Assembly: GCF_014524545.1 (NCBI RefSeq)
Contig: NZ_CP053557.1
Location: 2,753,501 to 2,817,500, forward strand
Origin: Exiguobacterium sp. Helios
GTDB taxonomy: Bacteria; Bacillota; Bacilli; Exiguobacteriales; Exiguobacteriaceae
DNA length: 64,000 nucleotides
Reading direction: 5' to 3'
Every line of letters begins with the position of its first letter. Within the stretch, counting starts at the first letter, position 1. The notes under the pieces are model-generated. The model was given only the letters and a program-made list of their open reading frames with translations, had not been told where the DNA came from and searched no databases. Shown one piece after another: positions 46,978 through 53,391 of this stretch. Position numbers and translations under genes: made by a program.

Positions 46978-48063
46978 TCAGACTTGATCATCAGCGACGA
47001 TTTGCAAATCAATGCCCCGGTTTTGGCGCATGATTTGATTGACGATCGAACCGCGCCGGATTTCCTGCCACCGGGTCCGTGCGGATTGACCGAGCACGAT
47101 TTGTGTAATGCGGTGATGTTTTGCGGCCGCCGTGATGGTCTCCGCAATCGAACGTTCTCCTTGAATCCGAATTAAAACTTCTGCGTCAAACAGGGCACCA
47201 CTTTCCCGTAACATCGCCAGTACTTCTTTTTGAAATGCCGGCAACTGGTTTTCCGGTTTGGGTAGAATCGTCAAGATATAGAGATCCGCTTTCATCCGGC
47301 TCGCCATCCGAAATCCACGATAGATTAACTTTCGTGCATTTTCGTTCAACTGGACACAGACCAAAATTCGTTCCTGTAATAATGTCGGATCTTTTTCAAT
47401 CAGCAGACGGGCTTGATACACTTGATCGTCGACTTCATCTGCGACTTGCCGGAGCGATAACTCCCGTAAGCTCGCTAAGTTTTGTAAGGAGAAAAAAGAA
47501 TTCAAGCTTTGTTCAATCTTCTCTTTTTTATAAATTTTCCCGTGTTCCAACCGCTCGCGCAATGTTTGCGGCGTCACGTCCACGAGTAGAATCTCATCCG
47601 CCTCCCCGAGAAAGGGATCCGGAATCCGCTCCCGGACTTCGACCCCTGTCATTTCTTTCACCTTAAACAGCAGGCTTTCGAAATGCTGGATGTTGACAGC
47701 CGAATAGACATTGATTCCCGCTTCAAGCAGGACAGAGACATCCTGGTACCGTTTTTTTCGAACCGAACCCGGCGCATTCGTATGTGCCAGTTCGTCAATC
47801 AACACAATATCCGGCTTGCGGGAAATGATCGCTTCGACGTTCACCTCAAGAAACACTTTCTCTTTATAATGGACGTCGAGTAACGGCACCTGCTCGAGCC
47901 GTCCAATCATCTCTGCCGTATCGCGTCGGCCGTGCGTCTCAATCAAGCCGATGACGACGTCCTTCCCTTCCCCGACTAACGCATGTGCATCCGCGAGCAT
48001 TTTATACGTCTTCCCGACACCTGGAGCCGAGCCGATGTACAGCTTCAGCTTTCCGCGTGTCAT
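46978..48063 (-). CDS. kdpD: Truncated KdpD: sensor/USP half only, no histidine kinase
   Basis: A 361-residue protein matching only the cytoplasmic N-terminal half of the KdpD sensor kinase: a KdpD domain (residues 1-210) with Walker A GSAPGVGKTYKML and Walker-B-like IVLIDELAHTNAPGS, then a universal-stress-like domain (about 230-355; ERILVCVQLNENARKLIYRG ... GQSARTRWQE). The four membrane segments, GAF and kinase domains are absent, and no kdpE follows. The gene ends cleanly before a terminator, so this is a settled short form, as known from some other bacteria, not a recent break. It overlaps kdpC by ATGA. Confidence 0.92.
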   Translation of the reverse strand: MTRGKLKLYIGSAPGVGKTYKMLADAHALVGEGKDVVIGLIETHGRRDTAEMIGRLEQVPLLDVHYKEKVFLEVNVEAIISRKPDIVLIDELAHTNAPGSVRKKRYQDVSVLLEAGINVYSAVNIQHFESLLFKVKEMTGVEVRERIPDPFLGEADEILLVDVTPQTLRERLEHGKIYKKEKIEQSLNSFFSLQNLASLRELSLRQVADEVDDQVYQARLLIEKDPTLLQERILVCVQLNENARKLIYRGFRMASRMKADLYILTILPKPENQLPAFQKEVLAMLRESGALFDAEVLIRIQGERSIAETITAAAKHHRITQIVLGQSARTRWQEIRRGSIVNQIMRQNRGIDLQIVADDQV

Positions 48064-48581
48064 GATGGACTCCGATCAAGCTTCAGATTCAACATCAGAA
48101 CGTTCACATATTGATTGTTCCCTGCTTCCTGATCAACTAATCGTCGAACGGCATCAGGCGAGAGGTTTCGTTCCGTTGCAATCCGTTTCACCTGGGCCCG
48201 TGCATAATCGAGCGAGATGTGCGGATCGAAGCCAGAACCGGATGTCACGCGGGCATCGTCCGGAAGCGAAGCGCCGTCCACCTGATTCTGTTTTTCGTAT
48301 TCCGCCATCTGCTTGCCAAGCTCCGGGTTTGACGCGGCCAGGTTATCCCCGGCAGAAGCTCCCGCTAATTGATCCACCGCTGACGGACGTCCGTGAAAAT
48401 ACTGTTTCGACGTGAACGGTTGAGCGATCAATTCCGATCCGATGAATTTTCCGTTTTCCTGCAGCAAAGAACCGGCTGCTTTGTCCGGGACGAGTAACTG
48501 ACCGAATAAGGTCAGCAAAGCGGGAAAGACAATCCCGCACAACGCGGTGACGAAAACCGTCACACGAATGGCCTGTTTCAT
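48060..48581 (-). CDS. kdpC: K+-transporting ATPase subunit C
   Basis: Single-span subunit that aids ATP binding by KdpB. The 173-residue product has one N-terminal membrane helix (MKQAIRVTVFVTALCGIVFP) and the family blocks IGQ-type LIAQPFTSKQYFHGRPSAV, GASAGDNLAASNPEL and VTSGSGFDPHISLDYA. The ATG at 48581 follows AAGGAGAACAGAATC, 13 bases after kdpB. It overlaps kdpD by 4 bases. Confidence 0.96.
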   Translation of the reverse strand: MKQAIRVTVFVTALCGIVFPALLTLFGQLLVPDKAAGSLLQENGKFIGSELIAQPFTSKQYFHGRPSAVDQLAGASAGDNLAASNPELGKQMAEYEKQNQVDGASLPDDARVTSGSGFDPHISLDYARAQVKRIATERNLSPDAVRRLVDQEAGNNQYVNVLMLNLKLDRSPS

Positions 48582-48594
48582 GATTCTGTTCTCC

Positions 48595-50658
48595 TTATAG
48601 GATGCTTGCGAGCAAGACATCAATGATTTTAATGCCGATGAACGGGACGATGACGCCGCCGAGACCATAGATGAGTAAATTCCGACCAAGTAGCTGATCC
48701 GCTGTCATCGGTTTATACGAGACACCTTTCATCGCGAGCGGAATCAGCATTGGGATGATAATCGCGTTAAAGATCAAGGCCGAGAGAATCGCGGTCGTCG
48801 GCGAATCGAGTCGCATGATGTTGAGCAGTTCCATTTGGGGAATCGCGACCATGAAGATTGCCGGAATAATCGCAAAGTATTTCGCGACATCATTGGCAAT
48901 CGAAAACGTCGTCAACGCGCCGCGTGTCATCAGCAACTGTTTCCCGATTTCGACGACTTCGATAATTTTCGTCGGATTGGAATCGAGATCAATCATGTTG
49001 GCTGCTTCTTTTGCTGCCTGTGTCCCGCTGTTCATCGCAAGACCGACATCGGCCTGAGCGAGCGCCGGCGCATCGTTCGTTCCGTCCCCCGTCATCGCGA
49101 CCAGGTGTCCTGCGTCCTGCTCGCGTTTGATGACCCGGATCTTATCTTCCGGTGTACATTCGGCGACGAAGTCATCGACTCCGGCTTCCCGGGCAATCGT
49201 CGCTGCCGTCAATGGATTGTCGCCGGTACACATGACGGTTTTAATCCCCATCTCCCGCAGGCGGTCAAATCGTTCCCGCATGCCGGGTTTGACCGTGTCT
49301 TTCAAGTAAATGACACCTAAGATCGTCGAATCGATGGCAATGACGAGCGGCGTGCCGCCGAGACGGGAAATCTGCTCGACCGTTTCCTGAAGATTGCCGG
49401 GGATGTCTCCCCCTTGATCAACGACCCACTGTTGAATCGCTTGACCGGCCCCTTTTCGAACGCGGCGACCGTCTGCTAAATCAAGTCCCGACATCCGTGT
49501 TTCCGCGCGGAACGGAATGATTTCCGCACCTTGCAAACGGTCATGTTCGATCGTCATGTTTCGCAGTTCGGCAAGTTCCAGAACCGAGCGGCCTTCCGGT
49601 GTCTCGTCGGCAAGTGATGAGAGCGTCGCGCCGGCAAAGGTGGCTTCCGTCGTTGCGTCACCGACCGGTAAAATGTCAGATGCCATCCGGTTCCCGAATG
49701 TAATCGTTCCGGTTTTATCGAGGATAATCGTTTGGATGTCGCCTGCCGCTTCGACCGCCTTCCCGCTCATCGCGATGACGTTGAACCGGGTCACCCGGTC
49801 CATTCCGGCAATTCCGATTGCTGATAACAATCCGCCGATCGTCGTCGGAATCAAACAGACGAGCAGTGCAATCAGGATCGGACCCGATAAGCTGAATCCT
49901 AAATAATTCGTAAAGACAGGCAGTGTCATGACGACGAGTAAAAAGATCAGCGTCAAGCTTGTCAGTAAAGTCGACAGCGCCAACTCGTTTGGTGTTTTTT
50001 GCCGGCTTGCCCCTTCAACGAGCGCAATCATCTGATCGAGGAATGACTCGCCGGGATTGCTCGTGATCCGGACTTCAATTTCATCACTGACGACTAACGT
50101 TCCGCCGATGACGGACGAAAAATCGCCCCCTGCTTCTTTAATGACAGGTGCTGACTCACCTGTGATTGCCGACTCATCGATTGAAGCAAGCCCTTTGATG
50201 ATTTCGCCGTCCCCCGGTACATATTCACCGGTCCGGACGAAAACGATATCACCTTTACGCAGTGTCGCCGAGGACACGTTCTCGATCATTTGACCGACCC
50301 GTTTCCGTGCCATGACATCGGCTTTCGAGGCTTTCAAGGAATCCGCCTGTGCTTTCCCGCGTCCTTCGGCAATCGATTCGGCAAAATTCGCGAACAAGAC
50401 AGTCAGGAATAGGATGATACTGACGGCTAGGTTAAAGCCGCGCATCTCATCGATGAAAACCGTATAGCCGATTGCAAGCAGGCAACCGATCCAGACGACG
50501 AACATGATCGGTTGTTTCACCATATGAACCGGGTTTAGTTTCTTCAAGGCATCCAGTGTCGCTTGTTTCGCAATCGATGGATTGACAGTTGCTGTTGCTT
50601 CTTTTTCCGGAACGTTCGGTTTCTGCCCAGTAGGTTGATCTTTGATTGGTTCCATCAT
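48595..50658 (-). CDS. kdpB: K+-transporting ATPase subunit B
   Basis: P-type ATPase subunit that powers high-affinity potassium uptake. In 687 residues: seven membrane segments, the actuator motif [10 protein letters not shown], the phosphorylation site [12 protein letters not shown], and the hinge [18 protein letters not shown]. The start ATG ATG at 50658 follows CAGGAGATAATGAAAG, after a 17-base gap from kdpA. Confidence 0.97.
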
Positions 50659-50675: not shown

Positions 50676-52316
50676 TCACATCGTCAGCCAATCCGCGATA
50701 GGTCCAAGCACGAGCACTGGCAGGAATGTCAGTGCACCGACGAGTACGACCGTACCGAGGAAAACTGTACCGAAAAGTGGGGTATCTGTTTTAAAAGAAA
50801 ATTCATCCTGTGGAACAGCCGGTTTCGCTTTTAACGATCCGGCAATCGCAAGCATCAGGATTAACGGGATGTAACGACCGAAGAATAAGGCAAACGACGT
50901 TGAGACATTCCAGTAGACGTTCGCATCGCCAAGTCCTTCAAAGCCGGAACCGTTGTTGGCCGTCGCCGAGGTGAACTCATATAGAACTTGGGATAGACCA
51001 TGGTAGCCGGGATTGGAAATCGCTCCGACACCCGGTGCGACGTACATCGAAATCGCGGTTCCGACCAGAATCAGAAACGGCGGAACGAGTAACGTAATTG
51101 CCATCAGCTTGACCTCAAACGTCTCGAGCTTTTTGCCGAGGAAGGTCGGCGTCCGCCCGATCAATAGTCCGGTCAGGAAGACCGCGACAAACGCATACAG
51201 CAGTACGTTCAGGAAACCGGCACCCGTTCCGCCGTAGACGACATTCAGCATCATGTTTCCGAGCTGGATTAATCCGGCAAGCGGATGAAGCGAATCGTGC
51301 ATCGCATTGACAGCACCTGTTTCAGCCGCTGTCGTAATGGAACTGTACAAGACAGTTCCGACTTGACCGAACCGGAGTTCCTGACCGTGTGCGGTCGGAT
51401 TCGCAAACAAACTGCCCGCCATCCCGAACGTCATCAGCATAAACAGGATGGTCATGACACCGAGGAAAAGGCGGCCTTGTTTTGCTGAGCCGATCAGTTT
51501 TCCGTAAGCGATTGGAAGTGACATCGGAATCAGCAGCATCAAAAACATCTGGATAAAGTTGACGTACTGGTTCGGGTTTTCAAACGGGTGGGCGCCGTTC
51601 GCCCCGAAGAATCCGCCACCGTTGTTCCCCAGCTGTTTAATGACTTCAAAAGCAGCGACCGGTCCGCGGTAAATCAACTGCTTCGCGCCTTCGAGTGTCG
51701 TCACCGTCACGGCACCGCCAAACGTCTGCGGGACGCCGAGTAAAATCAGCAACACGCCAAATACGAAAGACACCGGAAGTAGGACACGGATGATGAAACG
51801 AACGAAGTCCGCATAAAAGTTCCCGAGCGGCTGATTCGCCAGGCCGCGGATGACGGCGATGCAGACTGTAAAGGCCATCGTCGGTGCGACGAACAGCATC
51901 GTTCCGAGGACAAACGTCTGTGACAGATAGGATAATGCTTCACCGGAGTAATGCTGTTGATCCGTATTCGTCATGAAACTGATGGTCGTATGCAGGGCAG
52001 TCGACCAGTCAAGATTAGCGGCACCGTTCGGATTCAAAGGCAGGATGCCTTGAAAACGGAGTAACACGTATCCTCCGACGAAGAACAACAGATTGACGAG
52101 CAGCAGACTTTTCGCATAACCGACCCATGACTGGTCCTGTTTTCGTTCGTCGACGCCGAGCAACAACAAGAGTCGTCGTTCCACCTTACCGATCCAGTCG
52201 TTTTTTCGAATGGCCACAGGTGCAAAGACCGTTCCGATGTACCGTCCAAGCAAAACGGCCGCTCCCAGGGTGATGATCAGTAAAATCCAAAATTGAATTA
52301 AAAATTGAGTCCACAT
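50676..52316 (-). CDS. kdpA: K+-transporting ATPase subunit A
   Basis: Potassium channel-like subunit of the Kdp complex; 546 residues and about ten membrane segments. It contains the four pore-loop type selectivity regions, e.g. TTISFMTNTDQQHYSGE, QLGNNGGGFFGANGAHPFENP and ATANNGSGFEGLGDAN. The ATG at 52316 follows TAGGAGAAACAAATC, 20 bases after kdpF. Confidence 0.97.
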   Translation of the reverse strand: MWTQFLIQFWILLIITLGAAVLLGRYIGTVFAPVAIRKNDWIGKVERRLLLLLGVDERKQDQSWVGYAKSLLLVNLLFFVGGYVLLRFQGILPLNPNGAANLDWSTALHTTISFMTNTDQQHYSGEALSYLSQTFVLGTMLFVAPTMAFTVCIAVIRGLANQPLGNFYADFVRFIIRVLLPVSFVFGVLLILLGVPQTFGGAVTVTTLEGAKQLIYRGPVAAFEVIKQLGNNGGGFFGANGAHPFENPNQYVNFIQMFLMLLIPMSLPIAYGKLIGSAKQGRLFLGVMTILFMLMTFGMAGSLFANPTAHGQELRFGQVGTVLYSSITTAAETGAVNAMHDSLHPLAGLIQLGNMMLNVVYGGTGAGFLNVLLYAFVAVFLTGLLIGRTPTFLGKKLETFEVKLMAITLLVPPFLILVGTAISMYVAPGVGAISNPGYHGLSQVLYEFTSATANNGSGFEGLGDANVYWNVSTSFALFFGRYIPLILMLAIAGSLKAKPAVPQDEFSFKTDTPLFGTVFLGTVVLVGALTFLPVLVLGPIADWLTM

Positions 52317-52336: not shown

Positions 52337-52417
52337 TTAGAATTTTTCTGGATAAATCAAACAATAACTCAGATACAAAAAGACAACACAACCGGTAGCC
52401 AGCAAAAACCAGGTCAT
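52337..52417 (-). CDS. kdpF: KdpF small membrane subunit
   Basis: A 26-residue single-span peptide, MTWFLLATGCVVF then LYLSYCLIYPEKF, with the typical KdpF ending YLxYxLxxPEKF. It stabilises the KdpABC complex. The ATG at 52417 overlaps the stop of the upstream 35-residue reading frame as ATGA, so translation is coupled. It sits directly before kdpA. Confidence 0.9.
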   Translation of the reverse strand: MTWFLLATGCVVFLYLSYCLIYPEKF

Positions 52418-52521
52418 TTCCGGTCACCTGCCCGCCATTGAATCCGTTCAATCAAACCAATCATCAAAAACGAACTTCCGAAAAACAATGCGAGTAACAA
52501 GACACTCCAAAGGTCCTCCAT
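52414..52521 (-). CDS. 35-residue membrane peptide, first gene of the kdp operon
   Basis: A small reading frame, MEDLWSVLLLALFFGSSFL then MIGLIERIQWRAGDRK: one hydrophobic helix followed by a basic tail. It has its own strong ribosome site (TATGGAGGTAATTTCAAC) and overlaps kdpF by ATGA, both signs of real translation. It lies after the riboswitch terminator, so it is the first product of the kdp transcript. I do not know a named function; a regulatory or assembly role in Kdp is inferred from position. Confidence 0.75.
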   Translation of the reverse strand: MEDLWSVLLLALFFGSSFLMIGLIERIQWRAGDRK

Positions 52522-52569
52522 GTTGAAATTACCTCCATATTATTCAATATTTTTACAATTGAGCACGGC

Positions 52570-52608
52570 AAAAAGACGATGTGAGGCAGTAACGGCCCCA
52601 GCATCGCC
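52570..52608 (-). terminator. c-di-AMP riboswitch expression-platform terminator
   Basis: On the minus strand GGCGATG pairs with CATCGTC (52602-52608 / 52575-52581), one wobble, with an inner GGGGC/GCCTC stem and five T. It lies between the ydaO aptamer and the first kdp reading frame. Confidence 0.8.
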
Positions 52609-52651
52609 TAAAAAAATTGGCATCACTGAATAAGAGTCGTTCCCTCCTAAA

Positions 52652-52781
52652 ACGCCTGCGAGGTTAGCTGTCGGATTCGGGCATACCTAGGATTTCGCCC
52701 TACTTCTCTTACCTGAGAAGATTCACCCCGTGTCACGTGTCGTGACGGTTGGGTCCCCCGCTTCAATCATGAATTCGGCGT
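52652..52781 (-). promoter_or_regulatory. c-di-AMP (ydaO-yuaA) riboswitch aptamer
   Basis: On the minus strand the conserved ydaO blocks occur in order: ACGCCGAATTC (closing stem and first GAA), GCGGGGGACCCA, CGGGGTGAATC, GTAGGGC, GCCCGAATCCGACAGC, TAACC and AGGCGT (closing stem). The RNA binds c-di-AMP and in known cases ends transcription when the messenger is high. Here it controls kdp, fitting the general rule that c-di-AMP, rising with K+, turns off potassium uptake. Confidence 0.95.
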
Positions 52782-52828
52782 ACTTTGAGATCGAAGCATT
52801 AACATGTTAGTGTTCGTTGATGAGATGG

Positions 52829-53029: not shown

Positions 53030-53224
53030 TTATGATTGCTCATTCAGTTTGGCCTGGACCGTCAAAGGAGCTAGCATCGTCACCCACAGGGCGACCACTC
53101 CAGAAACAAGAATCACAATATCACGTTCGAATCCGAGGGTCAGCAGTGTAACAACACTTGCAACCAAGACGAGACAAAGCGTCGCGATCATGACAAAACG
53201 CGATTGTTTCAACATCTTTCTCAT
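53030..53224 (-). CDS. Small two-helix membrane protein
   Basis: A 64-residue protein with two hydrophobic segments (about residues 9-28 and 34-55), a basic N-terminus MRKMLKQSRF and tail VQAKLNEQS. The ATG at 53224 follows AAAGGAGAGATGCCAC. Function unknown; I see no family signature. It stands alone between the kdp promoter region and the divergent gpx gene, with a large terminator hairpin behind it. Confidence 0.6.
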   Translation of the reverse strand: MRKMLKQSRFVMIATLCLVLVASVVTLLTLGFERDIVILVSGVVALWVTMLAPLTVQAKLNEQS

Positions 53225-53391
53225 GTGGCATCTCTCCTTTCTTTCCAAAGTCTTTTGTATTTTATCAAATTTTATAATTGTTCCGGGCGTCTGACACCGG
53301 ATTGTGAAGGAATTGTCATCTGATGACCGTTTTTCAGGCGAAAGCCGGACGCATTTGATACACTGATGGTAAGACCATAAGGGGGAATTTT

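Follow-up and report, generated by a model that had tools for sequence, protein, structure and literature searches.

The DNA analysed here (the window) is a stretch of 64,000 nucleotides from Exiguobacterium sp. Helios (contig NZ_CP053557.1, positions 2,753,501 to 2,817,500), which carries a kdp operon on its minus strand (Table 1). KdpFABC is a textbook ion pump. Ahead of kdpF, a frame of 35 codons (52521..52414) encodes the sequence MEDLWSVLLLALFFGSSFLMIGLIERIQWRAGDRK, and its product is called X in the following. The stop codon of X and the start codon of kdpF share the bases ATGA (52417..52414). Because a riboswitch for cyclic di-AMP (c-di-AMP) and a terminator-like hairpin stand upstream of X, X is the first open reading frame (ORF) 3' of the switch; this position and the overlap had both been described in the original prediction, which was made from the sequence of the window. 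The c-di-AMP riboswitch is found at kdp in all 16 loci of the genus and in all four of the sister genus.

Table 1. Features of the kdp locus, in coordinates of the window
Feature	Position	Strand	Basis
X, one-helix membrane protein, 35 residues, ATG start, TGA stop	52414..52521	-	ORF list, genus conservation, dN/dS, AlphaFold2
GGAGG, Shine-Dalgarno-like site of X, 10 nt 5' of ATG	52532..52536	-	read from sequence; position kept in relatives
AGGTGA, Shine-Dalgarno-like site of kdpF, within the final X codons (..A-G-D..)	52424..52429	-	read from sequence
kdpF, 26 residues	52337..52417	-	PF09604, 21.2 bits (cut-off 21.2)
kdpA	50676..52316	-	PF03814, 663.8 bits
kdpB	48595..50658	-	TIGR01497, 1069.6 bits
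kdpC	48060..48581	-	PF02669; start inferred at an internal ATG of a longer frame listed to 48689
short kdpD: KdpD and Usp domains, no histidine-kinase domain	46978..48063	-	domain matches
c-di-AMP riboswitch aptamer (ydaO/yuaA)	52638..52790	-	RF00379, 97.5 bits
terminator-like hairpin with a trailing U run, located between the riboswitch and X	52574..52609	-	minimum free energy -22.3, z -2.66

Coding selection on the frame within the genus

The frame by itself is weak evidence for a gene because 112 ORFs of at least 24 residues occur in about 8 kb. Given how common open frames of this small size are, X could be no gene at all but a chance frame that is kept open by the ribosome site of kdpF and by base composition. 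However, X is conserved across the genus, which takes it beyond a chance frame. It is present in 16 of 19 genomes, and these are the identical 16 that have kdpA; the three genomes without kdpA are also without X. All 16 sequences keep the length of 35 residues, the ATG start, a Shine-Dalgarno-like site, and the ATGA overlap with kdpF; a strong ribosome site had already been noticed in the original prediction. The variable columns of the alignment are distributed over codon positions 1, 2, and 3 as 16, 13, and 29 of 36. The pooled pairwise ratio of non-synonymous to synonymous substitution rates (dN/dS) is 0.113 for X and 0.121 for its codons 2-28; in the same genus, kdpF has a ratio of 0.087 and kdpA, over its first 300 codons, one of 0.060. 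Column-permuted alignments gave a mean of 0.86 and none of 300 was as low as X; the equal rates of synonymous and non-synonymous change that would have spoken against the original prediction are therefore not seen. In addition, the two other forward frames over X contain stops in 16 of 16 rows. The even lower ratio of codons 29-35 (0.042) was discounted as a sign of protein function, as the final codons hold the ribosome site of kdpF.

This test of coding selection covers the genus of the window. Within it, the alignments indicate that the 35-codon frame is a real gene under selection as a protein, and the proposed small membrane protein ahead of kdpF is borne out in every kdpA-bearing genome. 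Genus conservation, the codon-position pattern, and dN/dS, together with the cross-phylum profiles, the specificity in Bacilli, and the later loci described below, all oppose a chance frame, which is largely refuted and scarcely conceivable. The kdp genes themselves are patchy, with kdpA in 16 of 19 genomes of the genus and in 4 of 19 of the sister genus.

Relatives of X beside kdp genes in other bacteria

KdpA (PF03814) is present in 143 of 398 Bacilli genomes. We read 89 upstream regions from Bacilli (four of them from the sister genus), the 16 loci of the genus, 13 plasmid records, and 80 named contigs found by KdpA alignment; three fetched records were not used, namely L128 (201 bases from within kdpA) and L266 and L267 (kdpA stretches read without their upstream sequence). 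Most of these regions have a short helix ORF ahead of kdpF, and the family takes the form of a single-helix ORF of about 26-38 residues with the pattern M-x-[DE]...FF......[DE]R. Examples are MLDLVMLVLAAAFFAAGIGYAYACERL from Bradyrhizobium, MDLVLVLVTVGFFALGWAYTHGCERL from Myxococcus, MPDLAFVSITVLFFVVAWAFVKGCDRL from an acidobacterium, and MGDVISILLYLAVFAMFLGLFRAFDRA from a Bacilli genus. At 12 bits or more, X stands beside kdp in 177 of 198 loci, always on the coding strand, most of the 198 having also trained the profiles by which X was counted. These are all 16 loci of the genus, three of four of the sister genus, 75 of 85 of the other Bacilli (the original prediction had advised to look in other Bacillales for frames of 30-40 residues upstream of kdpF), 7 of 13 plasmid records, and 76 of 80 contigs. 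The phyla with X beside kdpF comprise Bacillota, Pseudomonadota, Acidobacteriota, Chloroflexota, Myxococcota, Actinomycetota, and others, and an invention of the genus is refuted by these relatives. Among ten later loci outside the training, nine match X with 17 to 48 bits (L222, L223, L278, L279, L280, L281, L283, L284, and L285) and the only failure is a Salmonella plasmid (L282).

At 12 bits, X was not found beside kdp of E. coli (L221), Listeria (L133), Lactiplantibacillus, and Halobacterium, nor in two Deinococcus plasmids, some Bacilli families, a Corallococcus, and a Desulfosporosinus. In a KdpA tree that has 143 rows and omits L187, L198, and rows of less than 480 residues, the state of X changes 6 times compared to a mean of 17.2 for shuffled labels. 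The simplest reading of this tree would be that X is old, widespread, and has been lost several times. Except for the tree and the tree-independent pair tests, the statistics count related genomes separately. The first picks at L040, L109, and L133 are unlike X; these loci score below 12 bits and the picks were excluded from the training and from the charge, length, and Shine-Dalgarno counts. L072, also below 12 bits, is absent in the count of 177 but present in the charge and KdpF-tail counts and in the tests on the KdpA tree.

One profile was built from 76 distinct non-Bacilli X and another, separately, from 57 distinct Bacilli X with the genus excluded. When searched against 4581 pooled six-frame ORFs, each profile recovers the members of the other. 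The top-scoring "controls" are mostly X that the picking rule had missed (L148, L163, L139, L140, L121, L045, L104, and others), and a few chance frames score 8-15 bits. In profile-profile alignments with hhalign, genus and Bacilli match with 95.7%, and Bacilli and non-Bacilli with 95.5%. The window X scores 17.2 bits with the Bacilli profile (E 8e-4), which none of 1000 full shuffles reached. KdpF sequences reach at best 9.4 and 9.9 bits with the two X profiles (medians about 1), and hhalign gives 0.3, 25.6, and 23.7% for X against KdpF profiles, with 0.3% for the genus. A duplicate of KdpF was ruled out as the origin of X, since the profiles do not match.

For specificity, a profile of 31 X from the genus, the sister genus, and other Bacilli was searched against all 398 Bacilli genomes and the places of KdpA were compared by eye. 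Among the best 131 matches (E <=0.0026), 130 are followed within about 350 bases by a KdpA match, and the 31 training rows come from this class of matches; at one of the 130, kdpA is only a broken fragment (G297). The remaining match (G053) is inside a frame of 258 residues, and weaker matches (E >0.0026) are mainly noise in long frames. Within these 398 genomes, X is by its sequence matches a kdp gene that is confined to kdp loci.

The family seems to have been overlooked by databases and annotation. None of 20 X sequences (the window, nine other Bacilli, and ten from elsewhere) reaches a curated cut-off in Pfam or NCBIfam, the KdpF models PF09604 and TIGR02115 do not match the window X, which the true KdpF adjoins, and no chain in the PDB matches the X profile. 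The annotation tables of eleven X-bearing records omit X (L132, L135, L136, L137, L139, L278, L279, L280, L283, L284, and L285), four of which (L278, L279, L280, and L283) omit kdpF too, the PLSDB tables being incomplete. A RefSeq protein of 34 residues from Mycetohabitans endofungorum (WP_212667346.1, L222 1251-1355) is listed as "potassium ABC transporter ATPase". Its place before kdpF and its 31.1 bits with the non-Bacilli profile make it a member of X, and the name is misleading. No description in the literature was found under that name, the phrase being met only in work on saliva integrons, and no paper describing the ORF came up in the open-access literature searched, which does not cover most subscription journals. 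Because there is no match to a curated family or a PDB chain, annotation is mostly without X, and the literature searched is silent, X is filed as a new family of a known sort, the one-helix accessory protein of a membrane complex; its members share a profile across independent lineages and a place beside kdpF or kdpA in the kdp operon.

Topology, gene order, and coupling to kdpF

AlphaFold2 predicts X as one helix of residues 2-33 (mean predicted local distance difference test score, pLDDT, 92.9), so that X is, as KdpF, one short hydrophobic helix encoded in the kdp operon. The hydrophobic helix of the original prediction thus stands. The basic tail lies outside the core of the family, since many relatives are 26-28 residues long and end with [DE]R[LA], and in the longer forms the additional codons mostly hold the Shine-Dalgarno site of kdpF. 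Lysine and arginine are more abundant in the C-terminal than in the N-terminal flank in 136 of 148 distinct X (means 1.89 and 0.11), and because of these C-terminal charges X is predicted to be oriented N-out/C-in according to the positive-inside rule. Mycobacterial KdpF has been judged N-in/C-out in two-hybrid work, as far as the available text of that study goes (PMC3618439), and therefore the helices of X and KdpF may be antiparallel, if orientations can be combined across species.

In 174 of 198 loci the order is X-F-A, with kdpF also present. X and kdpF overlap by four bases in 63 of 167 picks, and X codons contain the kdpF Shine-Dalgarno site at 57 of 65 overlapping loci. X is in addition the first ORF after the riboswitch. 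These features would suit a cis-acting leader, whose translation opens or couples the ribosome site of kdpF and whose amino acids matter little. However, the amino-acid sequence of X is conserved and its profile is common to several phyla, and a fixed place upstream with coupling is not what the loci show. Many X end 1-32 nt ahead of kdpF without overlap. The order is F-X-A in two Burkholderia (L140 and L281), where X is 3' of kdpF, and B-X-F-A-C, with X after kdpB, in three Deinococcus (L223, L283, and L284). In L045 and L102, X abuts kdpA with no kdpF between; at these loci kdpF may be lost or located elsewhere. A protein acting in trans is favoured because X survives changes of order and the absence of kdpF, and it is quite improbable that X is just a leader. 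Translational coupling to kdpF is nevertheless likely where X overlaps, and may be an added role at these loci. As 81 of the 99 non-overlapping X are 26-28 residues long, this clustering of lengths suggests a core of 26-28 residues, which a tail extends as far as kdpF in some lineages.

A possible role of X in the Kdp pump

It is reasonably probable that KdpFABC has in X, besides KdpF, a second accessory subunit or modulator with one helix. That X would act on the stability of Kdp, as the original prediction had already considered, or on its control is the leading interpretation of the gene data. When K+ and c-di-AMP drop, the terminator would be read through and X would be the first product, whose translation would pass ribosomes to kdpF via the ATGA overlap. 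Being made first, X would be present when KdpF and KdpA insert; it could insert with or next to KdpF at the membrane domain of KdpA and KdpB, and might help the pump to assemble, stabilise it, or adjust its set point. In a wider form, for which the chances are about even, the Kdp pump of most bacteria would be built from five parts, and apart from a few lineages the second one-helix subunit would be nearly universal. It would sit like phospholamban or FXYD on animal P-type ATPases and would have been missed because it is not beside the E. coli kdp genes and is too small to be annotated.

It is rather unlikely that X, instead of being a stable subunit, is a separate regulator of Kdp signalling or turnover, for example with KdpD or a membrane protease as its partner, in the way that MgrB and SafA act on PhoQ. 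Small Kdp peptides can meet the sensor, since the KdpF of Mycobacterium binds KdpD in the two-hybrid assays reported in the available part of PMC3618439. However, the product of the short kdpD is the sole KdpD-domain match over cut-off in the Exiguobacterium genome and has no histidine kinase, yet X is kept. In addition, X is located beside kdp in many phyla and is thus probably not bound to one type of regulator. Neither the tie to the truncated KdpD that the original prediction had suggested nor one to control by the riboswitch is supported, because X occurs in many non-Bacillota loci and c-di-AMP-switch kdp operons are placed in Bacillales in the passages available of PMC6488665.

Several observations weigh against X as a part of the pump. 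Membership is inferred from the company of X in genomes. Several Kdp systems lack X, among them those of E. coli (L221) and Listeria (L133), and X must therefore be dispensable for the basic pump. The hhalign match between the genus and non-Bacilli profiles is modest (72%), the window X gets only 3.3-3.9 bits from the non-Bacilli profile, and its score with the Bacilli profile was attained by 13 of 1000 shuffles confined to the core. Because the profile scores alone are modest, the case for the window X rests jointly on profile, place, and selection. KdpF ends with PE.[FY] in 170 of 176 loci with X and in 3 of 18 without (194 loci; Fisher p 4e-15), but this association is not significant after correction for kinship, where about 3 of 6 tree-independent pairs agree and none oppose (p ~0.25). 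The ending was therefore rejected as a sign of contact with X and retained only as a hint.

KdpF (PF09604/TIGR02115) and X are alike in having one helix and about 25-35 residues, and in belonging to the same operon, where they often overlap or are adjacent. In contrast, they show no profile similarity (0.3-25.6%), and they differ in their motifs, which are ...AL..PE[KR]F at the end of KdpF and M.[DE]...FF....[DE]R in X. CydX, AcrZ, and subunit IIa of B-type oxidases, in the partial accounts available, are also tiny helices that accompany a membrane complex and were first overlooked; they are likened to X by form, X being known here from genes. Phospholamban, sarcolipin, and the FXYD proteins are one-helix companions of P-type ATPases according to the accessible part of PMC10654040, and the analogy is again one of form alone, X being bacterial and accompanying a P1A pump. 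The KdpA chains of known structure all belong to a single kind with 557 residues (25 entries with 3 distinct sequences), which, like the solved Kdp complexes, we take to be that of E. coli. As X was not found beside the E. coli kdp genes, it is possibly invisible to pump studies based on this species. If X is a part of the pump, the standard model of Kdp lacks one part and annotation has missed a gene in many genomes. The tuning of P-type pumps by small helices would then be open to study in simple organisms, for instance Deinococcus and Rhizobium, which have members of the family.

The kdp operon of Bacillus thuringiensis BMB171 resembles the window in its kind of riboswitch, the terminator, kdpFABC, and the short kdpD. 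As described in the passages available of PMC6488665, kdpF is drawn as its first gene, with the terminator 143 bp upstream and an untranslated leader of 370 nt; the 143 bp leave room for X, and these passages name no ORF there. The short KdpD is a known type, for which serine-kinase action on KdpB is described for Deinococcus geothermalis in part of PMC11018627. Its combination with the c-di-AMP riboswitch in the window corresponds to the fully c-di-AMP-controlled Kdp arrangement published for other species, as far as the portions available of PMC6488665 and PMC11018627 go. Upstream of the riboswitch, the window contains a hydrophobic ORF of 72 residues (53030..53248, minus strand), for which no family match above any cut-off was found.

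Other small ORFs were seen in kdp operons. In the Deinococcus plasmids L130 and L131 a different short helix ORF between kdpF and kdpA has X-profile scores of 0.5 and 4.1 bits and is either a diverged X or something else. An Acidithiobacillus has a "hypothetical" gene of 46 residues between kdpF and kdpA (L139 1288-1428), and a Phyllobacterium one of 57 residues between kdpA and kdpB (L285 2607-2780). Loci of the Bradyrhizobium type (L158, L160, L164, L170, L171, L176, L177, and L211) contain a third short hydrophobic ORF between kdpF and kdpA, at about -140 to -4 relative to the kdpA match, for example MLGQLLVADAALTILLVGVLAVLLRSKPIRKV.
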